From positions 62,001-126,000 of the forward strand of contig VGXC01000001.1 in assembly GCA_016873495.1 (NCBI GenBank): 64,000 bases of DNA, in the 5' to 3' direction. The stretch's first letter is position 1, and each line of letters begins with the position of its first letter. This document shows, piece after piece, positions 19,551 through 33,403 of this stretch. A program made the translations under genes and the position numbers. Source of the DNA: Nitrospira sp. (GTDB taxonomy: Bacteria; Nitrospirota; Nitrospiria; Nitrospirales; Nitrospiraceae). A model generated the notes under the pieces. The model was not told where the DNA came from. It was given only the letters and a program-made list of their open reading frames with translations, and did no database searches.

Positions 19551-19982
19551 ATGCACAAGGACCTCAAAGAGATCGGTCTCCTCAGGGATCACCTGGCCAA
19601 GCACCAACTGAAGTTGACCCGCCAGCGCGAACAAATTCTTTCCGTGTTCCTCAAAATGGAGCACATCACGGCGGAGCAAATGTACCGCATGTTGGCCAAG
19701 AAAGACCCTCACATCGGGCTGGCGACCATCTATCGGACCTTAAATCTGTTTTGTGAGGCAGGCCTGGCGCAGGCGCGCCACTTCGGCACGCAAACGCAAT
19801 ACGACAATATCTCGCACAAAGGACACCACGACCACTTGATTTGCACGGATTGCGGCAAGATCGTCGAATTTGAAAACTGCGACATCGAACGGCTGCAAGA
19901 GGAGGTCGCCAGGCGAAACGGGTTCACCATCAAAACCCATAAGCTGGAGTTGTACGGCGTCTGCACAAATTGCCGTCATTGA
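19551..19982 (+). CDS. fur: Fur-family metal-responsive regulator
   Basis: 143 aa. A winged helix-turn-helix (residues about 10-85, with TRQREQILSVFLKM and IGLATIYRTLNLF) precedes a dimerisation domain with HHDHLICTDCGKIVEF and a terminal CTNC pair for a structural zinc. This is the full Fur architecture, binding ferrous iron to repress uptake genes. It is directly upstream of fbpABC and near other Fur-box-like sites, supporting iron over zinc or peroxide sensing. ATG 19551 is chosen over upstream non-ATG starts because the conserved N-terminal helix begins there. Confidence 0.9.
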   Translation: MHKDLKEIGLLRDHLAKHQLKLTRQREQILSVFLKMEHITAEQMYRMLAKKDPHIGLATIYRTLNLFCEAGLAQARHFGTQTQYDNISHKGHHDHLICTDCGKIVEFENCDIERLQEEVARRNGFTIKTHKLELYGVCTNCRH

Positions 19983-20057: not shown

Positions 20058-21134
20058 ATGAAGTCGCACCGACGGTCCTCTGCCTGCACCTCATACCATC
20101 GTTTTGGTCGTCGGGGTTCCCTGGCGCTCCTGAGCGGCTTCGCAGCCCTGCTGTTCAGCGGTCTCCCGGGACTCATCTGCGAGAGCGCTGCCGCCGACAA
20201 ACTGATCGTCTATTCAGGACGGGCCGAGAAACTCATCAAGCCGGTCCTGGATGCCTTCCAGGCCAAGACCGGCATCCAAGTGGAACTCCTTTCCTCAGGT
20301 GCCACAGAATTAGTGAACCGGCTGCAAGCCGAGGGAGACCGCACCCCCGCCGATCTTCTGATCACCAACGATGCCGGTAGTCTGGAGCGGGCCCGGGAGT
20401 TGGGGCTCTTGCAGGCCCTGCACATGAAAGAAGTCGAGCTAGCCATTCCGCCGGCCTTCAGGGCCGCAGACGGCAGCTGGATCGGGCTGTCCGGACGCTT
20501 CTGGACCCTGGTCTACAACACCAACCTGGTCAAGCCTGGCGATGTCCGGTCGGTGCTGGACCTGGCGGACTCCCGCTGGAAAGGCAAGATCGCCATCCCC
20601 AACGCGGGAAGCGAATATCTGCAAGCCGGGGTCTCGGTGATCAAGGCGGCTCAGGGAGACGAGCGGACCCAGCAGTTCCTGCTCGGGCTCAAAACCAACG
20701 CCGGCTCGTTCGTCTACGGCAAGAGTTCCCAAATCGTGGATGCTCTCGCGAAGGGAGAGGTGGCCCTGGGCCTGGTGAACCACTATTACCTCTACCGATA
20801 CCTGGCCGACCATCCCGGCGCCCCCATTGCCATCCACATGCTGGATCAGCAGGACAAGGGCATGGGGGCGATTATGAACGTCGCCGGAGTCGGGATCATG
20901 AAACAAAGCCGCCATCTGGACGCAGCGAAGTTGCTGGTGGAATTTCTGGTGTCACGCGAAGGACAGAAGCTGTTTGCGGATTTGAACAAGGAGTACCCCC
21001 TCCATCCTGAAGTCCCTGTCGATCCGGCCCTCCCGAAACGGGAATCCTTCCGCATCGCGTCGGTTCCTCTGTCACGCTTGGGCGAATTGCGGGAACCGGC
21101 CATGACGCTGATCGAACAGGCAGGTCTTCGCTAA
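20058..21134 (+). CDS. fbpA: Ferric iron ABC transporter, periplasmic binding protein
   Basis: 358 aa, FbpA/IdiA type. A long N-terminal signal (hydrophobic residues about 22-45, ending AAA) is followed by the start of the mature domain, DKLIVYSGRAEKLIKPVL. The NHYYLYRY motif carries the tyrosine pair that coordinates ferric iron in this family. It delivers free or citrate-bound ferric ions to the membrane permease. It is followed 6 bases later by fbpB and is likely repressed by the Fur protein encoded just upstream. Confidence 0.92.
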   Translation: MKSHRRSSACTSYHRFGRRGSLALLSGFAALLFSGLPGLICESAAADKLIVYSGRAEKLIKPVLDAFQAKTGIQVELLSSGATELVNRLQAEGDRTPADLLITNDAGSLERARELGLLQALHMKEVELAIPPAFRAADGSWIGLSGRFWTLVYNTNLVKPGDVRSVLDLADSRWKGKIAIPNAGSEYLQAGVSVIKAAQGDERTQQFLLGLKTNAGSFVYGKSSQIVDALAKGEVALGLVNHYYLYRYLADHPGAPIAIHMLDQQDKGMGAIMNVAGVGIMKQSRHLDAAKLLVEFLVSREGQKLFADLNKEYPLHPEVPVDPALPKRESFRIASVPLSRLGELREPAMTLIEQAGLR

Positions 21135-21140
21135 CGCTGC

Positions 21141-22727
21141 ATGGTCACCACAGTTCGCCATGCCCTCCCCACCTCCCTTTCAATTTTTACGCTGACCGTT
21201 GCCGGCCTCATCTGCCTGCCCCTGGCCTTTGTTGCCTATCAAGCCCTGACCGCCGGCGCCACCGTCTGGACCCGCTTGTGGAACACCAGGATTCCAGAAT
21301 TGCTGGTCAACACCGGGTCCCTGGCTCTGAGCGTGTCGGCCGGCACCCTTCTACTGGGCGTCTCTCTGGCCTGGCTCGTCGTCCGCTACGAATTTCCCGC
21401 CAGGCGGTTCTGGGAATGGGCGCTGGTGCTGCCGCTGGCCATGCCGACTTACGTCTTGGCCTACATCTACACGTATCTGCTCGGAATCGGAGGCCCGGTC
21501 GAGCAGGCCTGGCAAGTCTGGGCAGGGCCCGATGCCAGAATCTTCCCGCCCCACAGCCTCTCCGGCGCCACGCTGGTCATGACCCTGGACACCTTTCCCT
21601 TCGTCTATCTGCTCAGCCGGGGAGCCCTCATGAACTGCAACGTGACGTTTGAGGAGGTCGCGCAGGCCTGCGGCGTCTCCCGTCTCCAGACCTGGCTCCG
21701 CGTTACCTTGCCGTTGATGCGCCCGGCCATCGTGGCCGGCTTGTCGTTGGTGGTGCTGTACGTGGTCTCCGACTTCGGGGCCGTGTCGCTGCTCCGATTC
21801 CAGACCTTCACCTATGCCGTGTACCAACAGGTGAGCGGGCGCTACGATCGCGCCGCCGCCGCTTCGCTAAGCCTGCTCCTGGTCGGGCTCGCGTTGCTCT
21901 TGCTTATCGCCGAACGGTGGTTCCGTCAACAAAGTCGGTTCTACCAGACCACCGGCCGCTATCGCGCGCCGGCCCGCAAAGCGCTGCACCCGTTAGGCGC
22001 GTGGCTCTCGACCACGTATGCGGCCGCCGTGTTCGGCGCATCGTTTGGCCTACCGGCCTGGCTCCTCATCCAGTGGAGCCTCGCGGCCCTGGCGGACGGA
22101 GCGCTGGACGCCAGGTTTCTGGGATTCATCGCAAACAGCCTCCTGCTGTCCGCATCGGCCGCCACACTAGCGATCGTCATCGGCATGCCCCTGGCCTACG
22201 CGGCAAGCCGGCGTCCATCCAAGCTCCACATCCTCTGTGCCCAAGCGGTCTACGCCGGCTACGTCTTGCCCGGCCCGGTTGGCGCCCTGGCCTTGCTGGT
22301 CCTGGTTTCCCACCTAGCTCCGTTCTGGTACGGCACGATACTGGTGCTGATCGCCGCCTACGTCCTCCACTTTCTTCCGGCCGGCCTCCAGACCATCGAG
22401 CCGGCATTGCAACAAGTCACGCCGAATCTGGAAGAGGCGGCGCGAAGCCTCGGCTGCGGACCGGTCCGCACGCTTCGGGCGGTGACCCTGCCCCTCATCC
22501 GAGGCGGTGTCATCGCCGCCTGGGTCTTGATGTTTCTGCAATGTATGAAGGAGCTGCCGGCAACCCTGCTCCTCCGCCCGGTGGGCTATGATACCCTGGC
22601 CGTGCGGGTGTGGCTCGAAGCCAGCGAAGAATACTATCAATTGGCCGCCCCCTCGGCCCTCTTGATCGTGGCTATGACCATCCCGGCGATTCTGCTGCTG
22701 GTTTCGAAAGATTGGCGCGCGGCGTAA
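21141..22727 (+). CDS. fbpB: Ferric iron ABC transporter, fused permease
   Basis: 528 aa with about 12 membrane helices, the typical fused-dimer permease of the FbpB/SfuB type. Two EAA loops that dock with the ATPase are visible: EEVAQACGVSRLQTWLRVTL (from about residue 170) and EEAARSLGCGPVRTLRAVTL (from about residue 430). It forms the inner-membrane channel for ferric iron with FbpA and FbpC. Confidence 0.92.
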   Translation: MVTTVRHALPTSLSIFTLTVAGLICLPLAFVAYQALTAGATVWTRLWNTRIPELLVNTGSLALSVSAGTLLLGVSLAWLVVRYEFPARRFWEWALVLPLAMPTYVLAYIYTYLLGIGGPVEQAWQVWAGPDARIFPPHSLSGATLVMTLDTFPFVYLLSRGALMNCNVTFEEVAQACGVSRLQTWLRVTLPLMRPAIVAGLSLVVLYVVSDFGAVSLLRFQTFTYAVYQQVSGRYDRAAAASLSLLLVGLALLLLIAERWFRQQSRFYQTTGRYRAPARKALHPLGAWLSTTYAAAVFGASFGLPAWLLIQWSLAALADGALDARFLGFIANSLLLSASAATLAIVIGMPLAYAASRRPSKLHILCAQAVYAGYVLPGPVGALALLVLVSHLAPFWYGTILVLIAAYVLHFLPAGLQTIEPALQQVTPNLEEAARSLGCGPVRTLRAVTLPLIRGGVIAAWVLMFLQCMKELPATLLLRPVGYDTLAVRVWLEASEEYYQLAAPSALLIVAMTIPAILLLVSKDWRAA

Positions 22728-22854
22728 TAATAATTTTGAAGGTTAGAAGGTCGCAAAGTCGAAAGGTTGGACGGAAGCTGAGCTCTCGCACTCCTCGGAT
22801 TTTTTACTGGATGACTTGCAGACTATTAGACGCGCTCTTTCCACGGGTATCTTA

Positions 22855-23976
22855 ATGTCGCTCGGTCAACGTCAGCGCCATGATGCGATCTCCGGAGCGC
22901 GGCTCCCGGAGGCACCATCTTGCCCAACGGTGCTGGAACTGCGCCACGTCACCTGCGCCTACGAACGGGGCCGGCCGGCGATTTCCGATATCTCCCTCGC
23001 CATTCGTGAGGGGGAGATTCTCTGCCTACTCGGCCCGTCCGGATGCGGCAAGACCACCACGTTGAGGGTCATCGCCGGGTTCGAACCCATCACGGCGGGA
23101 GAGGTGTACTTGGAAAGCCGCCTCGTGTCCTCGCCGGAGTCGCTCATGGCCACCGAGCGGCGCCGCGTGGGCATGGTCTTCCAGGACTACGCATTGTTCC
23201 CCCACCTGCGCGTGCTGGACAACATCGCCTTCGGGCTCCGCGACCTACCAAAGGAGGAACGGGGCGCGCGGGTCTCCACCATGCTGGCCTTGATCGGGTT
23301 GACGGGGTTGGAACGACGGTACCCCCACGAGCTGTCCGGGGGGCAGCAGCAGCGGGTGGCCCTCGCTCGGGCGTTGGCGCAGAAGCCGACGGTCCTGCTG
23401 CTCGACGAACCTTTCAGCAACCTCGACCCGGACATGACCGGCAAGATGCGGGAGGAATTATACGACCTGCTGTTGCAGACCAACACAACGGCGGTCCTCG
23501 TCACCCACGACCACGAAGAAGCCTTCGCCATGGCCGACCGGATCGCCGTGCTACGCGATGGACGCTTGGAGCAGTTCGATTCCCCGGAGGCCATTTACCA
23601 TACCCCCGCCAGTCCCTTCGTCGCGGACTTCGTCGGCCAGGCCGACTTCATTCCGGGCTTGATCGAGAACGGCACGGTGACCACCGAGATCGGCCTCTTC
23701 CCGAATCAACAGAAATTCGCGGCAGGCACCAAGGTGGTGGTCATGATCCGTCCGGATGACGTGCACATTGCCCCGTCCGAACAAGGTACCGCCCGCATCA
23801 CGGCCCGGCAATTTCGGGGATCGGAGAATCTCTACACTGTCCAACTGGCTTCGGGAGACATTTTGCACAGCAGCGAAACCTCGACCAGTATCTACCCCAT
23901 CGGCACGCGCGTGAACATACACGTCTTGGCCTCGCACACCGTCCTGTTCGAACAGGGCCACCCCACGCCCACCTAG
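22855..23976 (+). CDS. fbpC: Ferric iron ABC transporter, ATP-binding protein
   Basis: 373 aa from ATG 22855 (a TTG at 22816 is possible). Walker A GPSGCGKTT (about residue 60), Q-loop FQDYALFPHL, signature LSGGQQQRVALARAL (about 160) and Walker B LLLDEPFSNLD are complete. A C-terminal TOBE-like regulatory domain (residues about 285-360) is present. It powers FbpB. The 128-base gap after fbpB is AT-richer and holds no gene. Confidence 0.92.
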   Translation: MSLGQRQRHDAISGARLPEAPSCPTVLELRHVTCAYERGRPAISDISLAIREGEILCLLGPSGCGKTTTLRVIAGFEPITAGEVYLESRLVSSPESLMATERRRVGMVFQDYALFPHLRVLDNIAFGLRDLPKEERGARVSTMLALIGLTGLERRYPHELSGGQQQRVALARALAQKPTVLLLDEPFSNLDPDMTGKMREELYDLLLQTNTTAVLVTHDHEEAFAMADRIAVLRDGRLEQFDSPEAIYHTPASPFVADFVGQADFIPGLIENGTVTTEIGLFPNQQKFAAGTKVVVMIRPDDVHIAPSEQGTARITARQFRGSENLYTVQLASGDILHSSETSTSIYPIGTRVNIHVLASHTVLFEQGHPTPT

Positions 23977-24072: not shown

Positions 24073-24498
24073 ATGGATGCCCTGAAAGAAACGGTGGACT
24101 ACGGCGTGATCGGCCTGTTGCTGGCCTTGAGCCTCTGGGCCGTTGCGGTCGCGGTCGAGCGCTGGCTCTTCTACCGCCGCATCGATCCGGCCCAATACCC
24201 GAACCTTCAGGTCTTCGAGCTGGCCCTGACGAAACGCCTGGTCATCATCGGCACGGTAGCGGCCAATGCCCCCTATATTGGCCTGCTGGGCACGGTTCTG
24301 GGCATCATGCTTACGTTTCACACGATGGGCACCTCGGGCACCATGGCGGTCAGCACGATCATGATCGGCCTCAGCCTGGCTCTCAAGGCCACCGCCGCCG
24401 GCCTGCTCGTCGCGATCCCCTGCGTGGTCATGAACAACGTCCTCCGCCGCCGGGTAACCGAGCTGGTCACCCAGTACAAGGTGCGACATGGATCGTGA
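24073..24498 (+). CDS. exbB: ExbB/TolQ-type proton channel protein
   Basis: 141 aa, short for the family and lacking the long cytoplasmic loop. The N-terminal helix (YGVIGLLLALSLWAVAVAVE) and the paired helices with ANAPYIGLLGTVLGIMLTF and IGLSLALKATAAGLLVAIP match ExbB. With ExbD it uses the proton motive force to drive TonB. AGGAG lies 7 bases before the ATG. The stop overlaps exbD by 11 bases, so the two are cotranslated. Confidence 0.9.
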   Translation: MDALKETVDYGVIGLLLALSLWAVAVAVERWLFYRRIDPAQYPNLQVFELALTKRLVIIGTVAANAPYIGLLGTVLGIMLTFHTMGTSGTMAVSTIMIGLSLALKATAAGLLVAIPCVVMNNVLRRRVTELVTQYKVRHGS

Positions 24499-24862
24499 AC
24501 TGGACCAGATCAACGTCATCCCCCTTGTGGACGTCATGCTGGTGTTGCTGGTGATCGTGCTCACCACGGCGACCTTCATTACGACCGGCCAGATCCCCGT
24601 AGACCTCGCCAAGGCCAAGGAGGTGGGGGACCGGAAAGAGGTTCCGCTGGTGATTACGCTCACCGCGGACGGTCGCCTGTACATGAACGACCGGCCCATC
24701 ACGCAGGATGGGCTCAAAGACGCATTGCTTCCCCACCCGCGCGAAGCCCTGGTCGTCGTGCGCGCCGACCGCGTCACGTTGTTGGAGCGATTTGTCCAAT
24801 TGGTGGACGACGTTCGTGGATTGGGATTCCAACAAGTCAGCCTGGAGGTGGTTCGCTCGTGA
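24488..24862 (+). CDS. exbD: ExbD/TolR-type biopolymer transport protein
   Basis: 124 aa. A single N-terminal helix with the essential Asp (INVIPLVDVMLVLLVIVLTT) is followed by a periplasmic domain (residues about 45-120). It is the proton-carrying partner of ExbB. It overlaps exbB by 11 bases and tonB by 4 bases (GTGA). Confidence 0.92.
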   Translation: MDRELDQINVIPLVDVMLVLLVIVLTTATFITTGQIPVDLAKAKEVGDRKEVPLVITLTADGRLYMNDRPITQDGLKDALLPHPREALVVVRADRVTLLERFVQLVDDVRGLGFQQVSLEVVRS

Positions 24863-25794
24863 ACGCTCTGCCCTTACCCCGTTCATGGGAAGTCCAGGCC
24901 CGGGCGTGGAGTTGGGCCGTCAGTCTGCTCCTCCATGGGCTTGCCATCGGCGCCGCGATCATCCTTATCGCAGACATGCGTTTGGCCCCCCAACCGGAGC
25001 CGTTTCGATGGGTCGTCTCCAAGATCGAGGCCCGGACGCTTGCTGAAACGCCCAGTCAGGCTCAACCGACCACAGCCCGACCACGCAAGCCGATGCCCCC
25101 GACACAGGCCCGGCCTGTCGAAGCCGACGCCCCGCCCACACGACCGGTTACGCCCATCCGACAGCAGAGCGCACAACCGGCGCCGGTGGCCAAGCCTGCC
25201 GAACCGGCACCGGTGATCCGTGAAGCCATCACACCGAAGGAGCCGGCGTCATCGGAACCTGTCGCTCCGCCTGTCGCACATCCGACGACAGCTCCCTCAA
25301 CTCACATCGCAGCGCCTCCTGTCGTAGCCAGCGCCCCCGCAACCCAAACTCAGAAGGCAATCCAGACACAATCCCTCCCTATCGATCCTCAGGCGCAGGT
25401 TCAGGACATCCCGGCGCCACAGACGCCTCCCGCAACTGTGGCCTCATTGATACCTCCAATCCAGCCAGGCCCCCAAGCTCAACCGACTCAGGGAACCCAG
25501 ACCAAATCCGACTATGGGTGGCTGGGGCAGTTGCTTCGAACACGGGTGGAACAGCTCAAACACTACCCGCATGTCGCCCGCGCAAACCGGTGGGAAGGTC
25601 GGGTGGTGCTCCGGGCCGTCATCGGCGAGGACGGGCAGCTGGTTGAATTGAAGGTCTCGGAGAGTTCGGGGCACTCCATCCTGGATGAAGCTGCCATGGA
25701 CGTCTTGAAACAATCCGCTCCACTGACCTTGCCGGCGCCATTGGGGCGCCCCCAGGTCGTCGTGCAAGTCCCCATCAACTACCGCCTCCACTAA
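24859..25794 (+). CDS. tonB: TonB energy-transducing protein
   Basis: 311 aa from a GTG start overlapping exbD. One N-terminal membrane helix (AVSLLLHGLAIGAAIILIAD), a long Pro/Ala/Gln-rich periplasm-spanning linker (about 60-215) and a C-terminal TonB domain (about 225-311, RWEGRVVLRAVIGEDGQL and VVVQVPINYRLH). It connects the ExbBD motor to outer-membrane receptors. No TonB-dependent receptor is encoded in this window, so its partner is elsewhere. Confidence 0.9.
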   Translation: MNALPLPRSWEVQARAWSWAVSLLLHGLAIGAAIILIADMRLAPQPEPFRWVVSKIEARTLAETPSQAQPTTARPRKPMPPTQARPVEADAPPTRPVTPIRQQSAQPAPVAKPAEPAPVIREAITPKEPASSEPVAPPVAHPTTAPSTHIAAPPVVASAPATQTQKAIQTQSLPIDPQAQVQDIPAPQTPPATVASLIPPIQPGPQAQPTQGTQTKSDYGWLGQLLRTRVEQLKHYPHVARANRWEGRVVLRAVIGEDGQLVELKVSESSGHSILDEAAMDVLKQSAPLTLPAPLGRPQVVVQVPINYRLH

Positions 25795-25815: not shown

Positions 25816-26862
25816 TCAGGGCTGGTTCGGTTCCAGTTTCAGCCGGCCCTTGAGGCCGGAGGACACCAGGATCCGTCCCTCACTGTCTACAATCACCCCT
25901 TCCACTCCCGGCAAGCGTTCGATCAGTGCCATTCCTGCCTCCGGCCCCATGACGAAAATGCCCGTATCCAACCCATCGGCGAAGGTGCCTTCCGTCGCCA
26001 CGATCGTGACACTCTGGCATTCGCGGGCCGGCTCTAATGTCTTGGGATCGAGGATATGATGGTATCGGATACCTGCACGCTCGAAGAACCGTTCGTAGTC
26101 CCCGGCAGTGGAAATGGCTTCGTCCTGAAGATCCAACCGGGCCAGCAACGCCCCTTCTTTGCGGGGATGCTGTATGCCGAACGCAAAGGGATGCCCGTTG
26201 GGCATCCGGCCGAACGTCTTGATGTCCCCTGACAAGGCCACAACGCCGGCGGTGGCGCCGACACGTTGCATCACAGCGACCGCCCGATCGGCGGCAAACC
26301 CTTTTCCGATCCCACCCACGTCCACGCGCATCCCCGGCCTGGCCAAGAATGCCGTGGAGCCCTTCTGATCCAACTGCAGTTGCGCAAGATCGACCAGCGG
26401 GCGCAGCGCCTCCAGTTCCCGATCGGACGGCACTCGCTGCAGCTCAGTGATGCTCCACGCCTGGATGGCCGGTCCAACCACAATATTGAAGCCTCCATTC
26501 GTGAGCCGGGCCATGTCGAGGGATTGCTGGAGGATCAGCAGAGTGTCCGGACTGACCCGTACCGGTTCACGACCGGCGGCCTCATTGACGCGCGACAACT
26601 CGCTCGTGGGAATCCAGGTGCTGAGCAAGTCCTCCAAGCGCCGAATCTCTTGAAATCCCGCCGTGGCGGCGGCTTGGGCCTCCGCTTCCGACGGCGCCAC
26701 CGCGGTGATCTGCACCAGCGTGCCCATCAGCATTTGGGCCCGCTTGAGTACGACGGGAGAGGCGGTTGTGTCGCTGTGCGCACATCCGGCCATGGCGCAC
26801 AGGACTAGAACCAATCCACACCTCATGCGGCGGATCCACGCGGCTGTGCGAGCTGGGTTCAC
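25816..26862 (-). CDS. apbE: FAD:protein FMN transferase, lipoprotein (ApbE)
   Basis: 348 aa. It attaches FMN covalently through phosphoester linkage to Thr or Ser of target proteins in the envelope, using FAD. A signal peptide with lipobox (LCAMAGC) is visible. Family motifs are VGGIGKGFAADRAV, LSGDIKTFG, STAGDYERFFE, YHHILDPKT and the metal-binding DGLDTGIFVMG. GTG 26862 is chosen after GGGG; ATG 26826 also leaves the signal intact. It overlaps or abuts the upstream lipoprotein gene. The FMN-binding protein at 30019 carries its target motif. Confidence 0.9.
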   Translation of the reverse strand: MNPARTAAWIRRMRCGLVLVLCAMAGCAHSDTTASPVVLKRAQMLMGTLVQITAVAPSEAEAQAAATAGFQEIRRLEDLLSTWIPTSELSRVNEAAGREPVRVSPDTLLILQQSLDMARLTNGGFNIVVGPAIQAWSITELQRVPSDRELEALRPLVDLAQLQLDQKGSTAFLARPGMRVDVGGIGKGFAADRAVAVMQRVGATAGVVALSGDIKTFGRMPNGHPFAFGIQHPRKEGALLARLDLQDEAISTAGDYERFFERAGIRYHHILDPKTLEPARECQSVTIVATEGTFADGLDTGIFVMGPEAGMALIERLPGVEGVIVDSEGRILVSSGLKGRLKLEPNQP

Positions 26863-26870
26863 GCCGGCCC

Positions 26871-27494
26871 CTACCACCAATGCCGACGATAATAACGAGG
26901 ATAGTTGGGATAGGGCATGACTTCGTGCAGGCGGGACTCTGATGACAGGGGGTTGGGCAAGGACGTAGCGACGGGACGTCCGGCCAAGTCAGGATACTGT
27001 GTCAATACCGGCGCCACAGCCGCGGCTTGCCCCTCTTCATCTTGCACAACCGACAGCAACACCATACGTTCATAACGAGGGGAATCGATGCCGAACCGCC
27101 ACGTCCCCACATACACCATGGGCTCGGCCCCCACGTCAAACGTGATATTCAGATCAGCCATCGACAAAAACGGCCCTTCACTAACCTGGACCCGGCTCAG
27201 GCTATACTGGCCGGTCGGCAGTTCGAGTGCAAACAGTTTGTCCGCCGACTGCAAATCCACACGATAGCGCTGCCCTGTTTCCTTCCGGACGAGTTCGAAA
27301 AACCTAACCTTCGGTTGATAGCGACGCCCGGACTGAGCCATGAGGACCGTCGTGGCACGGCCGAATATGATCGGCGTCTGTACCCCGGCATATTCTTTCG
27401 CCGATTCAGTAGAGACGGCACACCCACTCCATAGGGACCAGCCAACCGTCAGAAGACCCAGCATTCCGATGAGTCTGTTGCTCCGGCCGCTCAT
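26871..27494 (-). CDS. Hypothetical lipoprotein, 207 aa
   Basis: The signal peptide (residues about 5-27) ends with a possible lipobox (SLWSGC). The mature part is beta-rich and includes PKVRFFELVRKETGQRYRV and LPTGQYSLSRVQVSEGPFLS, which resemble carboxypeptidase-regulatory or DUF-type Ig-like folds. No family is named. It is immediately upstream of apbE with only a few bases between, so it should share its transcript and may belong to the same envelope redox function. Confidence 0.6.
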   Translation of the reverse strand: MSGRSNRLIGMLGLLTVGWSLWSGCAVSTESAKEYAGVQTPIIFGRATTVLMAQSGRRYQPKVRFFELVRKETGQRYRVDLQSADKLFALELPTGQYSLSRVQVSEGPFLSMADLNITFDVGAEPMVYVGTWRFGIDSPRYERMVLLSVVQDEEGQAAAVAPVLTQYPDLAGRPVATSLPNPLSSESRLHEVMPYPNYPRYYRRHWW

Positions 27495-27593
27495 GCAAAT
27501 CATTATAAGCCAGCGACTACGAAATTGTATGCCCTGCCCGTGCCAACCCCAAAACCCATCGCCCCTGCCCCGATAGGAACGTAAAAATAGCGC

Positions 27594-27623
27594 TTGACAG
27601 GAATCTATTGATTAAGATATCAA
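27594..27623 (+). promoter_or_regulatory. Predicted sigma-70 promoter of the Com-porin-FMN operon
   Basis: TTGACA at 27594-27599 is a perfect -35 hexamer. TATCAA at 27618-27623, 18 bases downstream, is an acceptable -10. It overlaps the Fur box, which would occlude RNA polymerase. Confidence 0.55.
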
Positions 27624-27637
27624 TAATCGTTCTCAAT
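27618..27637. promoter_or_regulatory. Fur box upstream of the Com-porin-FMN operon
   Basis: Reading the minus strand gives ATTGAGAACGATTATTGATA, which closely follows the classical AATGAGAATnATTATC pattern. It overlaps the predicted -10 element and ends 60 bases before the first gene, as expected for an iron-repressed operon. Confidence 0.7.
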
Positions 27638-27696
27638 TAGACCGAAAAACAAGGAAGTCCGAAACAATCATTGATCAATCTGATTCTCAAAGAACC

Positions 27697-28014
27697 ATGC
27701 TGACAAAAACCGACCAGAATCGACACGCAGAAACGGCGGAAACCCGCTGTGAATGCGGGCAACTGATTGCAAAGTTACGAGATCGCGGAATCGAACTGAA
27801 ATGCAAACGGTGCAAACGAATCGTCCTGATCCCGTTTTCATCGATTGAAGGCTGGGCATCACTCGCCCACCTAAGCGAGTCACCGACAACCAGTTTATAC
27901 CAAGGAGGTGCCTATCGGCATGATCGGATAAACGTCACGACAACCAACGGTCAGAGACCAAAGAGTCCCGAGCCACATCTACCACCTATTGTTCACAAGG
28001 GAGCACCAAGATGA
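27697..28014 (+). CDS. Com-like zinc-finger protein, 105 aa
   Basis: Cys18, Cys20, Cys36 and Cys39 (CEC and CKRC pairs) with the surrounding ELKCKRCKRIVLIPF resemble the Com zinc finger of phage Mu, an mRNA-binding translational activator of mom. A longer polar C-terminal tail (residues 50-105) is not part of that fold. It is the first gene of the Fur-box operon and overlaps the porin start by 4 bases (ATGA), so it is translationally coupled to the porin and might act on its translation. Confidence 0.6.
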   Translation: MLTKTDQNRHAETAETRCECGQLIAKLRDRGIELKCKRCKRIVLIPFSSIEGWASLAHLSESPTTSLYQGGAYRHDRINVTTTNGQRPKSPEPHLPPIVHKGAPR

Positions 28015-29525
28015 GGACCTGGGTATTGCTCGGGGCTCTGGCTTTCTGTTCGTTGATGCCGATCAAGCCGGCACAGGCAGAGGACAAGGCCCTAGAAGAT
28101 CGCATCAAGAAACTGGAGCAGCAACTGAAGGAAATGCAGGACCTTGAAGCTAAAGAGCGGGAAAAGGAGCGGATGAAGGAACCCGCTTCTCCACTTCTCA
28201 GCGGCTCGAAACCGACGGGTGTGGGCTCGATCCCGGAAATCGCCCGTGAGCGAGCCGGCGAGGAAGCGGTACCGCTGTCCTTCGGCTCGACCGGGTCAGG
28301 CCGCTTGCTCTATGCCAAGCCCTTCTTGACCGCGCCGAAGGCCACGGTCGGCGGCTACGGAGACATCCAATTCAACGCCCTGTCCCGTTCCAATCTGGAC
28401 AACCGGAGCCGGAACACGTTCAATCAGGTCCGCATGATCCCGTTTATTTACTCGGACATCACGGATCGGATCAAGTTCGCGACGGAAATCGAGTTCGAGC
28501 GAGGCGGAACGAATAATAATCAAGCCGACGGCGAAATCAAACTGGAGTTCGCCCAGATCGACTACCTGATTAACGAAGCGGTGAACCTGCGGGCCGGCAT
28601 CCTCCTGGTCCCGATGGGCAAGTTCAACCTCTTGCACGACTCGCCGCTGAACGACCTGACGGACCGGCCGATGGTGGCCAGGATGATCATGCCTTCGACT
28701 TGGAGCGAGAGCGGCGCAGGGTTCTACGGCACATTCTATCCCAGCAGCATGTCCAAGCTGGACTACGAAATCTACGTGATCAACGGGCTCCAGAACACCA
28801 GTAACGGCACCCTGGCTGCTCCCGGCACGGTAATCACGGACTTGAACGGCACGCGCAACGCCCGTGGCAGCAATGCCCGCTCTCCGCATGACGACAAAGC
28901 GATTGTCGGCCGTTTAGCCTACAGCCCGATGCTCGGCATCGAAGTGGCTGGGTCCGGCTACCATGGACTCCTCGGCAACAGAAACAATAGCGGCGTCAAT
29001 AACTTCTCCAGCTATGTCGACATGTTCGCCATCGATTGGACGCTCCAGAAAGGCCCCTGGGAACTCATCGGCGAGTCTCACTGGGTTCGGATCTCGGGGA
29101 ATCAGCTCGGAAGCAACGTCGGTCCCTCCGGCATGTCCGGCTATTATGTGCAGGGCAATTACCACTTCCTGCCGGATTTCCTCAAGAAGCTGGCGCCCAA
29201 CCATTTCACGGACGCCTCAACCTTCACCGCGGTCGTGCGCTGGGAACAAATCGACACCGACACGACCGACATTACCAGGAACGCCTGTTTGGCCGGCATC
29301 AGCGCCGCCGCCAACTGCCCCGGCAACGCCCGGGAGCTTCAACGCCTGACGATCGGCTTGAACTTCCGTCCGATCGAGGACACGGTGTTCAAGCTTGACT
29401 ACCAGTGGAACAGTCAGCTGAACACGAGCATCAACAACAACGCGTCCAACATCCCCACGTCCACCGCCAGGGGAAACCGGGTGGACGGAAGCGGGTTCAT
29501 GGCCATGGCGGCTACGTATTTCTAA
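28011..29525 (+). CDS. Outer-membrane porin with N-terminal coiled coil (OprP/DcaP-like)
   Basis: 504 aa. Signal peptide (residues 1-23, ending AQA), a coiled coil rich in K and E (about 24-60), then a beta-barrel (about 100-504) with alternating strands such as GGYGDIQFNAL and the EFAQIDYLINEAVNLRAGILL segment. The C-terminal residue is Phe, the usual outer-membrane insertion signal. The fold matches phosphate-selective or DcaP-type porins, but the substrate here is unknown. Operon position behind a Fur box suggests an iron-linked substrate. Confidence 0.8.
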   Translation: MRTWVLLGALAFCSLMPIKPAQAEDKALEDRIKKLEQQLKEMQDLEAKEREKERMKEPASPLLSGSKPTGVGSIPEIARERAGEEAVPLSFGSTGSGRLLYAKPFLTAPKATVGGYGDIQFNALSRSNLDNRSRNTFNQVRMIPFIYSDITDRIKFATEIEFERGGTNNNQADGEIKLEFAQIDYLINEAVNLRAGILLVPMGKFNLLHDSPLNDLTDRPMVARMIMPSTWSESGAGFYGTFYPSSMSKLDYEIYVINGLQNTSNGTLAAPGTVITDLNGTRNARGSNARSPHDDKAIVGRLAYSPMLGIEVAGSGYHGLLGNRNNSGVNNFSSYVDMFAIDWTLQKGPWELIGESHWVRISGNQLGSNVGPSGMSGYYVQGNYHFLPDFLKKLAPNHFTDASTFTAVVRWEQIDTDTTDITRNACLAGISAAANCPGNARELQRLTIGLNFRPIEDTVFKLDYQWNSQLNTSINNNASNIPTSTARGNRVDGSGFMAMAATYF

Positions 29526-29535
29526 AGGAACTGGA

Positions 29536-29564
29536 GGGGGCCGGCCAGTCACTGGCCGGCCCCC
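29536..29564 (+). other. Perfect 13-bp hairpin between porin and lipoprotein genes
   Basis: Arms 29536-29548 and 29552-29564 pair perfectly (GGGGGCCGGCCAG with its complement) around a TCA loop, 11 bases after the porin stop. There is no T-run, so it is probably an mRNA-stability or processing hairpin that raises porin levels over downstream genes. Confidence 0.6.
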
Positions 29565-29581
29565 CGGCTACAACGGATAAC

Positions 29582-30034
29582 ATGATGATGCGGAGTGCCT
29601 CCATACTGTTCGTTGCATCACTGATCTCCGGCTGCGCCTCGCTGGCGGGTGTCCAGGAACATTATCTCGTGTGTCCCTACGATACCCTGTGGGATGTGTC
29701 TTTGGAAACCCTGAAGGAGCGTCCCATTGCCATCAAAGACAAGGTTAAAGGCTTTATCGAGACCGGCTGGACCGATGTGCCCGTGGCTCGAACGTACGGC
29801 GTATTGGGGCGTGATATCGCCAACGCCAGAGACCGCACAAAGGTGTCGGTCACGCTCCGCAAAATGGACGACGTGACCAAGGTCAGCCTGGCCGAGGTTC
29901 GCGAACGGTGGAAATTCCGCGGCGGCTCGCGCCTGTATGGGTGGGATCAGGCTGAGCCGTCCGACGAAGACATCGCCAGACTCATGCAACGTCTCACCAA
30001 AACACTGAAGGAGCGCGGATGCACGCTCGCGTGA
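29582..30034 (+). CDS. Hypothetical lipoprotein, 150 aa
   Basis: A signal peptide with lipobox (LISGC) gives a lipid anchor at Cys20. The mature domain contains YDTLWDVSLETLKERPI and KVSVTLRKMDDVTKVSL, in the style of periplasmic lipoproteins of unknown function. It starts with three consecutive ATG codons (29582, 29585, 29588). It overlaps the FMN-binding gene by 16 bases, so the two are cotranslated and probably act together. Confidence 0.65.
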   Translation: MMMRSASILFVASLISGCASLAGVQEHYLVCPYDTLWDVSLETLKERPIAIKDKVKGFIETGWTDVPVARTYGVLGRDIANARDRTKVSVTLRKMDDVTKVSLAEVRERWKFRGGSRLYGWDQAEPSDEDIARLMQRLTKTLKERGCTLA

Positions 30035-30714
30035 GAGATCGGGTGCTCGGACTCGTAGCCGGACTGCTGTGCCTGTCCGCTTTGGCCCCAGCCTGGGCCG
30101 CCGAGCGGATCTGGGACCATGAGCTGCGGCGGTATCTGACCGAGGACGAAATGAGTAAATGGGGCGAGGAGTTCATGAATGAGGAGGAGGCCCTGAAGCT
30201 GATGCTGCCGAAGTCCGAGCGGATCCGGAAAGAACACGTCACGGTGAACCCGGATCAGAAGAGCGTGGTCGAGGCGCGCATCGGCTGGAAGTTCCCCGAG
30301 GAAGAATTCGATATCTATATCGGAGAGACCGGGAATAAGGTGGACGGGTACGCGGTAGTCACCAATACCATCGGCAAATACAAACATATGACCTACATGG
30401 TTGGCGTGGATCCTCTCGGCGAGGTCACGAATGTCGAGCTGTTGGTGTTTCGGGACGCTCGCGGCAGCGAGGTCAGCCGGAAGCGGTTCAACTCCCAGTA
30501 CCGGGGCAAGACATGCCTCGATCCGCTCCGGATCAATAAGGACATCATCAATATATCCGGGGCCACCATGTCGGTCCGGTCCATGAGTGCCGGGGTCAAA
30601 CGGGTGCTGGTCCTGATCGACGAGTTTTACCTGAAGCCAATCGGAAAGGGCAGCGACCAGGTGGCAGTTCGGCGTCAGGAGAAGGATTTCTTAGATCTAA
30701 TTTTCGGACGCTGA
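30019..30714 (+). CDS. Periplasmic FMN-binding domain protein (flavinylated)
   Basis: 231 aa. Signal peptide (residues 1-27, ending AWA), then a polar helix region and an FMN-binding domain (about 85-205). The segment IINISGATMSVRSM fits the [DS]GA[ST]x[ST] flavinylation consensus, so Thr183 is the expected covalent FMN site made by ApbE, which is encoded 4 kb away. The domain is shared with RnfG, NqrC and extracellular flavoprotein reductases. AAGGAG precedes the start. It likely carries electrons across the periplasm. Confidence 0.88.
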   Translation: MHARVRDRVLGLVAGLLCLSALAPAWAAERIWDHELRRYLTEDEMSKWGEEFMNEEEALKLMLPKSERIRKEHVTVNPDQKSVVEARIGWKFPEEEFDIYIGETGNKVDGYAVVTNTIGKYKHMTYMVGVDPLGEVTNVELLVFRDARGSEVSRKRFNSQYRGKTCLDPLRINKDIINISGATMSVRSMSAGVKRVLVLIDEFYLKPIGKGSDQVAVRRQEKDFLDLIFGR

Positions 30715-30731
30715 GAGGAACCTGGACCGAC

Positions 30732-31244
30732 ATGCGCAACTTCAACGCACGTTTTCGCCTGCGCGACACAGACCGTCACATCCGGCTCATTTATACGTTG
30801 TTCCTCCTCTTCACGCTGGTTGCCTTTGTCTTCAGCTTCTACTGGGCCCACAGCATGACGAGCTTGTCCCCGCAAGGTATAGCCGACCACTATCGAGGCT
30901 CAGACGCCACCTTCGGGGAGCCGATGTCCTTCCGAGAGCTGGCCGAAGTCACCCACTTTCACCTGTTCACCGTACCGGTCACCTTTATCATCCTCGTGCA
31001 TGTGCTCTACCTGACAGGGGTCAGTGACCGCATAAAAGCCTGGACGACCTGGGCGGCCTTCGCCGGCGTGGGACTGGACCTCGTTTCGCCCTGGTTGATT
31101 ACCTATGCCTCGCCGTTCTTTGTGCTGACGCTGCTGACGGGCGATATACTCATGGCCGCAACTTTTCTCATATCAATGGCCGTTCCGCTCTACGAAATGT
31201 GGTTTCTGAAGCAGCCGCTCATGGCGCGAAAGAGCGTCGATTGA
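30732..31244 (+). CDS. Four-helix membrane protein, partner of the FMN-binding protein
   Basis: 170 aa with four membrane helices (about residues 19-38, 75-96, 104-125 and 129-155). His75, His77 and His90 lie at the ends of helix 2, a spacing reminiscent of heme-binding pairs in b-type cytochromes, but no family is recognised. It is the last gene before a strong terminator and 17 bases after the FMN-binding gene, so it may feed electrons from the membrane to the flavin. Confidence 0.6.
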   Translation: MRNFNARFRLRDTDRHIRLIYTLFLLFTLVAFVFSFYWAHSMTSLSPQGIADHYRGSDATFGEPMSFRELAEVTHFHLFTVPVTFIILVHVLYLTGVSDRIKAWTTWAAFAGVGLDLVSPWLITYASPFFVLTLLTGDILMAATFLISMAVPLYEMWFLKQPLMARKSVD

Positions 31245-31293
31245 TGACCGACTAGCGTTTCACGATCGAAACCAAGGCCAGCGACACACCGTC

Positions 31294-31337
31294 CAGAGCC
31301 CACAGCCGCCCCCGCGGCTGTGGGCTCTGTTGTTTCT
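31294..31337 (+). terminator. Rho-independent terminator of the porin-FMN operon
   Basis: A perfect 16-bp stem (CAGAGCCCACAGCCGC and its complement, 31294-31309 and 31314-31329) with a CCCC loop is followed by TTGTTTCT. It separates the iron-linked operon from the HD-GYP gene. Confidence 0.88.
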
Positions 31338-31361
31338 ATGCATTGTCACCGGAGGACGAGG

Positions 31362-32027
31362 ATGCTTTACACGCACAGCTCACCCCAGGCCTTGTCGACC
31401 TGGACATCCGACCTGTTATTTGCCGTCTGCGCCGAGTGCCGGCCCTCGGAGGTGCTGCTGGCTCTCAGCCGGCTCATCCGCGTGAACGACCCGGACATCC
31501 TGGCGCACGGCCAGCGGACGGTTCGCTATGCGACCCTGCTGGGCAAAGCGGCCGGCTTGTCCGACCCGGATGTGACCGACCTGGGCTACGCCGCGTTGCT
31601 GCACGACCTCGGCAAACTGACGATCCCCTGCGCGATTGTGCGGAAGCGCGGGCCGCTCACAGCCGATGAATATGTCCTCGTCCAGTCCCATCCCCGCGCC
31701 GGCGCCGAGTTGCTCGAAGCCATCCCCTTCCTGCGCGTGGCCTCGGTCTGGATTGCCCACCATCACGAACGGTGGGACGGGACGGGCTACCCCTACGGAG
31801 TCAGAGACACGTACATTCCGTTCGCCTCGCGCATCCTGGCCGTCGCCGACACATTCGACGCCATGACGTCGGGACGCGCCGGCCACCGGGCGATGGACAG
31901 CGCCTCCGCCCTCCGCCTGCTCAGACTCATCGCCGGCTCGCAACTCGATCCGGATTTAGTGGAGCTGTTTGTGCGGCTTCCGTTGGAAACCGTTTCCGGC
32001 GAGCCGATCAGGCAGACCGATCGCTGA
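31362..32027 (+). CDS. HD-GYP domain c-di-GMP phosphodiesterase
   Basis: 221 aa. HD residues in LLHDLGKLTIP and the diagnostic AHHHERWDGTGYPYG place it in the HD-GYP family, which hydrolyses c-di-GMP, usually to GMP. The protein has no receiver or sensory domain, only about 45 residues before the HD core. GGAGG precedes ATG 31362. A terminator upstream isolates it transcriptionally. It would oppose the diguanylate cyclase at 10600. Confidence 0.9.
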   Translation: MLYTHSSPQALSTWTSDLLFAVCAECRPSEVLLALSRLIRVNDPDILAHGQRTVRYATLLGKAAGLSDPDVTDLGYAALLHDLGKLTIPCAIVRKRGPLTADEYVLVQSHPRAGAELLEAIPFLRVASVWIAHHHERWDGTGYPYGVRDTYIPFASRILAVADTFDAMTSGRAGHRAMDSASALRLLRLIAGSQLDPDLVELFVRLPLETVSGEPIRQTDR

Positions 32028-32391: not shown

Positions 32392-32877
32392 TCAGGCCTC
32401 TTGGCTTTCTTTGTGGATCTGCTCGCTGAGGTACTTTTCGGCGCCGACTTGCTTGATGGTCTCCAACTGGGTTTCGATCCAATCGATATGCTCTTCCGAG
32501 TCTTTGAGCATATGCTCCAGCAGATGTCTGGTCGTAAAGTCCCCCACGGTTGCACAATGAGCGATCGCGGCCCGAAGCAGCGCGATATCTTCGACTTCCA
32601 CCGCAAGGTCCAACGTAAGCTGCTCCGGGACGGTCTTGCCGACATGAACCGCCTCCAACCGCTGCATGTCCGGAAGCCCTTCGAGATACAGAATATGCTT
32701 GATCAGGGCTTCTGCATGCCGCATCTCGCCGATGCTACGGGACCGGACCGCATGCTCCAGCCGCTCAAACCCCCAGTGCTCGCACAGCTCTGCGTGGAGG
32801 AAATATTGGTGAATCGCGGTCAGCTCGCAGGTCAGAATCTTGTTCAGATAATCGAGCACACCTTCTTTCGCTTTCAT
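32392..32877 (-). CDS. bfr: Bacterioferritin, subunit with mostly intact ferroxidase site
   Basis: 161 aa, standard length. By ungapped alignment with E. coli Bfr numbering it keeps Glu18, Glu51, Met52 (heme), His54, Glu94 and His130, while position 127 is Ser. It stores iron as a ferric mineral in a 24-mer and shares heme at the dimer interface. AAGGAA precedes the start. It is 46 bases downstream of a second bacterioferritin, in the same order as heteromeric bacterioferritins. Confidence 0.92.
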   Translation of the reverse strand: MKAKEGVLDYLNKILTCELTAIHQYFLHAELCEHWGFERLEHAVRSRSIGEMRHAEALIKHILYLEGLPDMQRLEAVHVGKTVPEQLTLDLAVEVEDIALLRAAIAHCATVGDFTTRHLLEHMLKDSEEHIDWIETQLETIKQVGAEKYLSEQIHKESQEA

Positions 32878-32923
32878 CGTCGTTCCTTCGATTCTTCCGT
32901 GGCCGGCATGCCAGGCACAGACG

Positions 32924-33403
32924 CTAACTGCCTTCTTTCTTGATTTGCTCGCTGAGATAATTCTCCAATCCGACTTGTTTGATCGTTTCCATCTGCGTCT
33001 CGATCCAGTCGATGTGCTCATCCACATCCTTGGCCATGTCTTCGAGCATGTGGCGGGTCGTGAAATCCCCCACCTTGGTGCAATGGGCCACCCCGTCGCT
33101 CAACATCTTGAGCATTTCATGCTCCGCTTTCAGGTCCAGCTTGAACTGCTCCGGGACCGTCTCTCCCACGTGCACGGTCCCCAGTCGCTGCACGTTGGGC
33201 ACCCCTTCGAGGTAGAGGATATGCCCGATGAGCTCATCCGCATCCTTCATCTCGTCGATGCTGCGGTCCCGCACGTGGTGGTGGAGCCGTTCATAGCCCC
33301 AGTTTTCGCACATCTTGGCGTGGACGAAGTATTGGTTGATGGCGGTCAGGTCCGACGTGAGCACCTTGTTCAACAGGTCGATAACACCTTCTTTGGCTTT
33401 CAT
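32924..33403 (-). CDS. bfr: Bacterioferritin, subunit with degenerate ferroxidase site
   Basis: 159 aa, closely similar to its neighbour. Aligned to E. coli Bfr, Glu18 is Asp, His54 is Asp and Glu127 is Val, so the dinuclear centre should be impaired. Met52 for heme is kept. It may be the heme-bearing or structural partner of the 32392 subunit in a mixed shell. AAGGAGG precedes ATG 33403. A predicted promoter and a Fur-box-like site lie upstream. Confidence 0.92.
   Translation of the reverse strand: MKAKEGVIDLLNKVLTSDLTAINQYFVHAKMCENWGYERLHHHVRDRSIDEMKDADELIGHILYLEGVPNVQRLGTVHVGETVPEQFKLDLKAEHEMLKMLSDGVAHCTKVGDFTTRHMLEDMAKDVDEHIDWIETQMETIKQVGLENYLSEQIKKEGS

Follow-up and report, generated by a model that had tools for sequence, protein, structure and literature searches.

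What purpose is served by a flavin-attaching enzyme and its presumptive substrate when a bacterium encodes each of them once, in a single gene cluster, next to genes for ferric-iron uptake? The question is raised by a 64,000-nucleotide stretch of a Nitrospira sp. genome (assembly GCA_016873495.1, contig VGXC01000001.1, positions 62,001 to 126,000; hereafter the window), in which positions 25816-31337 hold apbE, for a transferase of flavin mononucleotide (FMN), and a facing operon for a zinc-ribbon protein (znf), a porin, a lipoprotein, an FMN_bind protein and a four-transmembrane (4TM) protein. We found that this gene set is strongly conserved across the Nitrospirota, that it stands behind a conserved Fur-box operator and that it recurs with different iron transporters. 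We consider it likely, at a probability of about 0.6, that it constitutes an iron-assimilation module, repressed by Fur, in which an extracytoplasmic flavoprotein transfers electrons; the module would probably reduce iron outside the cytoplasm and so enable its uptake.

One ApbE and one FMN_bind protein in a divergent locus

The host genome (3.19 Mb, Nitrospira-like, 99.97% complete) yields a single ApbE match and a single FMN_bind domain, both inside this cluster, and the two are therefore paired one-to-one. The minus-strand apbE and lipoprotein genes stand opposite the plus-strand znf–porin–lipoprotein–FMN_bind–4TM operon, and a plus-strand half of the cluster runs fur–fbpA–fbpB–fbpC–exbB–exbD–tonB. 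The features are as follows, in window coordinates.

19551-19982, plus strand: fur, Fur-family regulator directly 5' of fbpA (PF01475, E 5e-37 over window positions 19602-19955)
20058-21134, plus strand: fbpA, ferric-iron type ABC transporter (open reading frame)
21141-22727, plus strand: fbpB, ferric-iron type ABC transporter (open reading frame)
22816-23976, plus strand: fbpC, ferric-iron type ABC transporter (open reading frame)
24073-25794, plus strand: exbB, exbD and tonB (TIGR02805 above cut-off; PF03544)
25816-26880, minus strand: apbE, periplasmic lipoprotein FMN transferase (PF02424, E 5e-81 across residues 52-329)
26871-27503, minus strand: lipoprotein of unknown function that overlaps apbE, start possibly 27494 (open reading frame)
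27594-27639, plus strand: promoter and Fur-box-like operator, TTGACA-N16-GATATCAATAATCGTTCTCAATTA (phylogenetic footprint)
27697-28014, plus strand: znf, small zinc-ribbon protein, weakly Com-like (CxCG...CKRCKR)
28011-29525, plus strand: outer-membrane porin, predicted 16 strands and N-terminal helix (25-56) (PF07396, AlphaFold, Foldseek)
29582-30034, plus strand: lipoprotein of unknown function, weakly DUF3576-like (profile match)
30019-30714, plus strand: FMN_bind protein, secreted, predicted to be flavinylated at Thr183 (ISGATMS) (PF04205)
30732-31244, plus strand: 4TM membrane protein of a new family (AlphaFold model, homologue alignment)
31294-31329, plus strand: intrinsic terminator that closes the operon, 16-bp stem with 12 G-C pairs (stem analysis)

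Open reading frames and Pfam matches bear out every gene position given in a first-pass annotation of this DNA, and the strong terminator that it placed at the operon end is present. The neighbouring fbpABC and exbBD-tonB genes are also as it described, with the addition of fur, which it did not mention and which, as the first gene of the cluster, lies outside the coordinates originally given. Because the FbpA substrate-binding protein matches only related ABC families, all of them below cut-off, the assignment of FbpABC to iron is drawn from operon context and an NHYYLYR motif.

ApbE carries an N-terminal lipobox (AMAGC), and the FMN_bind protein, which matches PF04205 above cut-off (E 8.7e-6), has a visible N-terminal signal sequence. 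The SGATMS sequence at Thr183, proposed at first pass as the ApbE target, is part of a motif, [IV][ST]GATMS, that is kept in 79 of 79 orthologues, and the single copy of each protein supports the accompanying proposal that ApbE serves this substrate. A profile search against the PDB returned RnfG as the nearest solved structure. Membership of the RnfG/NqrC group was nevertheless rejected, as the protein scores far below the RnfG model cut-offs; other Rnf/Nqr subunits were not found in the operon, nor was a second FMN_bind gene found in the genome.

Conservation of the gene set and fusion of its two central proteins

Is this gene set more than a local arrangement? Gene order is nearly the same in 80 loci from other Nitrospirota genomes. 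Where the flanking sequence was long enough for a count, 71 of 73 loci have the porin gene, 76 of 78 the 4TM gene, 71 of 76 a counterpart of the lipoprotein at 29582-30034 and 61 of 69 znf, which also occurs in distant relatives; apbE lies within 5 kb of the FMN_bind gene in 55 of 62, and fbpC (50/56) and exbB (48/57) likewise lie near the module. The lipoprotein that overlaps apbE, for which there is no Pfam match, occurs in a subset of relatives. In a survey of 396 genomes of the phylum, the 4TM profile was found in 139 and the FMN_bind profile in 184, and an FMN_bind gene adjoins the 4TM gene at 130 of 132 module-type 4TM places. The exceptions are genome G199, in which the two genes are on different contigs, and genome G280, in which a divergent FMN_bind gene adjoins the 4TM gene in locus L121. 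Chance clustering was rejected on the strength of this adjacency and of conservation across classes, and the test that the first-pass annotation had set, conservation of the set in relatives, came out strongly positive.

In distant Nitrospirota, ApbE and FMN_bind are a single protein (L112-L118 and L120, with a partial copy in L119), direct evidence that the two work jointly. In each of the nine fusion proteins read, the ApbE and FMN_bind parts are separated by a segment with an RRx[FV] twin-arginine motif and, after it, a run of hydrophobic residues, and where the N-terminus could be read the ApbE part is without a clear signal sequence, with the caveats that the L117 N-terminus is moderately hydrophobic and the L115 start is uncertain. 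The internal motif, which resembles a twin-arginine translocation (Tat) signal, and the lack of a clear ApbE signal suggest that in these fusions the FMN_bind domain is flavinylated in the cytoplasm and then exported by the Tat pathway. The window is unlike them: two genes encode its ApbE and FMN_bind proteins, and the signal on ApbE is that of a lipoprotein.

A Fur-box operator overlaps the promoter

What would control the operon? A TTGACA element at 27594-27599 is followed by a Fur-box-like block at 27616-27639 (the GATATTAATAATCGTTCTCAATT site). Of 68 loci, 65 have a CTTGACA-N16-GATATTAATAATCGTTCTCAATTTCA block 5' of znf, always spaced by exactly 16 nt. The box positions are mostly invariant across the 65 loci and the flanking bases variable, although the invariance of part of the block comes partly from selection, because these loci were chosen by a pattern that includes that part. 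In an unconditioned scan with the canonical Fur box, 66 of 67 upstream regions reached at least 14/19, versus ~1.5% of random controls, a set that includes stretches overlapping the box. Moreover, Fur boxes of 14-18/19 lie directly upstream of the module or of fur in distant copies of the module. The overlap of a TTGACA promoter by a Fur box, first noted in this one sequence, is thus a conserved property, and Fur control finds genomic support both in the operator and in the recurrence of Fur boxes in the distant copies; a conserved operator in this position marks the operon as a predicted member of the Fur regulon.

The operator is the sole such site in the genome at two or fewer mismatches, so that other members of the Fur regulon may have divergent sites. 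A second candidate Fur box, on the divergent apbE side (14/19 at 27489), is not kept in relatives as a separate site and is for that reason not claimed.

Different iron transporters accompany the module

In L078-L081 the genes fbpB, fbpC, porin, lipoprotein, FMN_bind and 4TM are directly in a row, with fbpA also present in L079 and L080. In seven distant relatives fur lies beside the module (L113, L115-L118, L120 and L122); fbp genes do so in L114-L116 and L120 (fbpBC), FTR1 and a cupredoxin in L113 and, by sequence, also in L118, and feoB in L129. That unrelated iron transporters have been recruited to one module argues strongly that it serves iron assimilation. The module's link to iron is firm, and the connection with iron uptake made at first pass is supported across the phylum by neighbouring fbpABC, fur, FTR1 or feoB.

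A Fur-type operator would also suit iron-sparing respiration, in which the flavoprotein and the 4TM protein replace an iron-rich periplasmic carrier such as a cytochrome and iron is not a substrate. A flavin carrier needs no iron, redundancy between flavinylation and cytochromes has been noted (PMC8238504), and the distant copies L121 and L123 have no adjacent iron transporter. We regard this explanation as unlikely, however, in view of the repeated linkage to different iron transporters and of the porin, a component for which a respiratory carrier has no use.

Somewhat less likely again is a classical assimilatory ferric reductase, by which ferric chelates, extracellular or delivered by the porin, would be reduced for an unrecognised ferrous importer while FbpABC formed a parallel, co-regulated route. 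The feoB gene beside the module in L129 and the VIT1- and FTR1-linked flavinylation clusters (PMC8238504) are consistent with such a scheme, but FTR1 and Nramp were not found in this genome, and FeoB is not recognisable in it, the FeoB_N matches being weak and resembling other GTPases. As none of the three can be recognised, it is FbpABC that would have to accept the reduced iron.

The 4TM protein is a candidate electron carrier

If FMN on Thr183 is to be reduced, which protein would supply the electrons? The AlphaFold model of the 4TM protein has four long helices (residues 15-43, 67-92, 99-125 and 128-157; mean predicted local distance difference test score, pLDDT, 87). Neither Pfam nor NCBIfam has a model that the protein matches at E 0.1 or better; a fold search of the PDB gave no match (best E 1.1), and a search by sequence for a solved homologue likewise found none. 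Eight residues are invariant in 31 diverse members (Y54, G56, E72, H75, H77, H90, F110 and W121); the three histidines among them, which the first-pass annotation had singled out, are the only invariant ones and are all on helix 2. From the positive ends we infer that both termini are cytoplasmic, so that Y54, E72, H75, H77 and W121 would cluster on the periplasmic side and H90 would lie towards the cytoplasm.

As an identity for the protein, a DUF4405-type cytochrome was rejected because there is no profile match, and where DUF4405/FezC proteins have a DUF4405 sequence, six transmembrane helices and four central histidines, the 4TM protein has four helices and three invariant histidines. It also matches none of the PepSY-, MsrQ-, NapH- or DsbD-like electron-transfer subunits by profile or PDB fold.

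Paralogues of ~250 residues elsewhere in Nitrospirota genomes retain the HxH and have an additional CxxCH motif, haem-c-like, in a periplasmic loop (L124:5725-6480, L125:5506-6312, L126:6361-7071, L127:5867-6619 and L128:5124-5849), an addition that fits a redox role for the 4TM family. The L124 paralogue lies behind an ABC-2 transporter operon.

Porin, zinc-ribbon protein and flanking genes

The porin matches PF07396 above cut-off. Its AlphaFold model, of moderate confidence only (pLDDT 64), has 16 strands and an N-terminal helix, and Foldseek relates it to the general porins OmpU, OmpC and OprO (E 1e-11 to 1e-9). As modelled, the protein is a general 16-strand barrel and not a TonB-dependent receptor.

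The head of the operon had been described at first pass as a Com-like zinc finger. The CxCG...CKRCKR ribbon is indeed conserved with the operon; the likeness to Com is weak, with E values of 0.0025-0.05 against PHROG Com-type models and relatives below the Pfam Com cut-off. The weak similarity to Mu Com suggests that znf may regulate translation of the operon. At the operon head, znf accompanies the porin across classes.

Directly past the terminator, 31320-32027 encodes a stand-alone HD-domain (HD-GYP-like) protein, whose position is kept in many relatives. Two tandem bacterioferritin-like genes follow on the minus strand (32392-33403); many relatives have one or more such genes close to the module, placing iron storage beside iron uptake.

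Related sets on Pseudomonadota plasmids

Beyond the phylum, plasmids of Methylocystis, Bradyrhizobium, Ideonella and Sphingomonas (L136, L137, L138 and L140) have consecutive genes for an outer-membrane barrel, an FMN_bind protein, ApbE and a small membrane protein. Their FMN_bind proteins are homologues of the one in the window; the barrels, apart from that of Sphingomonas, are likewise homologues of the window porin. The small membrane protein of these sets is at best weakly DUF4405- or cytochrome b561-like (two loci), homology to the 4TM protein was not detected, and a search of plasmids with the 4TM protein gave no match. Different proteins thus seem to occupy the slot of the membrane electron carrier, and by analogy this speaks for an electron-transfer role of the 4TM protein.

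On a Massilia plasmid, an FMN_bind homologue (L139:5920-6492) reads VDGADLAS instead of SGATLS and has no adjacent ApbE; it is possibly a non-flavinylated descendant.

Multicopper oxidases lie near the Methylocystis version, and cupredoxin genes adjoin the module in L113 and, judged by sequence, L116 and L118. These neighbours would agree with a division of labour in which the porin and lipoprotein take up an iron chelate or haem and the flavoprotein performs some other reduction, for example of a periplasmic thiol or copper site. We think this improbable, and the least probable of the alternatives, since the Nitrospira versions have no conserved thiol or copper protein.

Proposed mechanism

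For the iron-assimilation module that we favour, events might run as follows. When iron is short, Fur would leave the operator that covers the -10 region, and ApbE would flavinylate the secreted FMN_bind protein at Thr183. A membrane donor, such as the quinol pool, would supply electrons that the 4TM protein passes on to the FMN by way of its conserved histidines, which would form a haem b or metal site. The porin, or a TonB receptor (the genome encodes five), would admit ferric complexes to the periplasm, where the reduced flavin would loosen iron from them by reducing it. FbpABC would then import the iron, with TonB-dependent import alongside; in relatives FTR1 or FeoB would take the place of FbpABC. 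Reduction in the periplasm before ABC import has a precedent in the pyoverdine system of Pseudomonas aeruginosa. The envelope redox role envisaged at first pass is supported by the genomics.

Some points weigh against this proposal. The 4TM protein is without a fold or sequence match to known electron carriers, and its histidines could bind metal. The ferrous product would be without an obvious importer except FbpABC, itself of the ferric type. Finally, the neighbours of the Pseudomonadota versions are not clearly iron-related genes.

A broader proposal, which we offer more tentatively, is that iron assimilation throughout the phylum employs a new class of 4TM electron-transfer protein with a periplasmic HxH/E/Y site, a flavinylated carrier and a dedicated porin, and that distant members use a self-flavinylating ApbE–Tat–FMN_bind precursor. 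In that precursor the cytoplasmic ApbE domain would modify the FMN_bind domain, and the internal Tat signal would then export and release it.

Relation to known systems

How much of this has been described? Flavinylation in iron assimilation is already published, with flavinylation clusters co-located with iron transporters (PMC8238504), and clusters of PepSY, DUF2271 and ApbE are known to be Fur-repressed (PMC3751524). The window operon resembles the iron-assimilation clusters of PMC8238504 (PepSY/DUF2271/DUF4198/ApbE; P19-FTR1-FMN_bind; MsrQ with VIT1) in that ApbE and an extracytoplasmic protein, flavinylated there and predicted to be so here, are encoded beside iron transporters, and its predicted Fur control parallels that known for the PepSY clusters of Shewanella and Caulobacter. 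It differs in having no PepSY, MsrQ, NapH, DsbD, Rnf or P19, and instead a porin, a zinc-ribbon protein, lipoproteins and the 4TM family.

DUF4405 has been shown to bind haem b, and DUF4405 cytochromes are encoded with apbE (PMC11334425). The 4TM protein is, like DUF4405/FezC, a small His-rich membrane protein encoded with apbE, and weakly DUF4405/cytochrome b561-like proteins occupy its slot in the Pseudomonadota modules; unlike DUF4405/FezC, to which it is not detectably homologous, it has its HxH on one helix, at the periplasmic end. With RnfG and NqrC the FMN_bind protein shares its domain, the SGAT motif and ApbE as the predicted modifying enzyme, whereas the operon lacks the other Rnf/Nqr subunits. 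Fusion of ApbE to its own substrate is known from the trypanosomatid fumarate reductase, which has an N-terminal ApbE domain (reviewed in PMC12052999). The fusions of distant Nitrospirota are alike in this respect but different in build, with ApbE followed by an internal Tat-like signal and then FMN_bind.

A word search of the main texts of PMC8238504 and PMC11334425 gave no mention of a porin partner or of Nitrospirota. Searches of the mostly non-subscription literature on porin, FMN-binding protein and ApbE, on ApbE–Tat fusions and on Nitrospira iron regulation returned no description of the set, in agreement with the first-pass view that this combination of partners was not a recognised one, and nothing on a Nitrospira Fur regulon or ferric uptake. 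The parts for which we found no description are the porin partner, the zinc-ribbon protein, the 4TM family and, in relatives, the ApbE–Tat–FMN_bind fusions.

Implications

Nitrification is driven by nitrite-oxidising and comammox Nitrospira, whose demand for iron is very high. A conserved, single-copy module behind a clear operator makes iron acquisition in Nitrospira testable. If the proposed roles are correct, the 4TM family would be a further transmembrane electron route to flavins outside the cytoplasm, and the ApbE–Tat–FMN_bind fusions would mean that flavinylation can precede export, contrary to the usual view of ApbE as a periplasmic enzyme.

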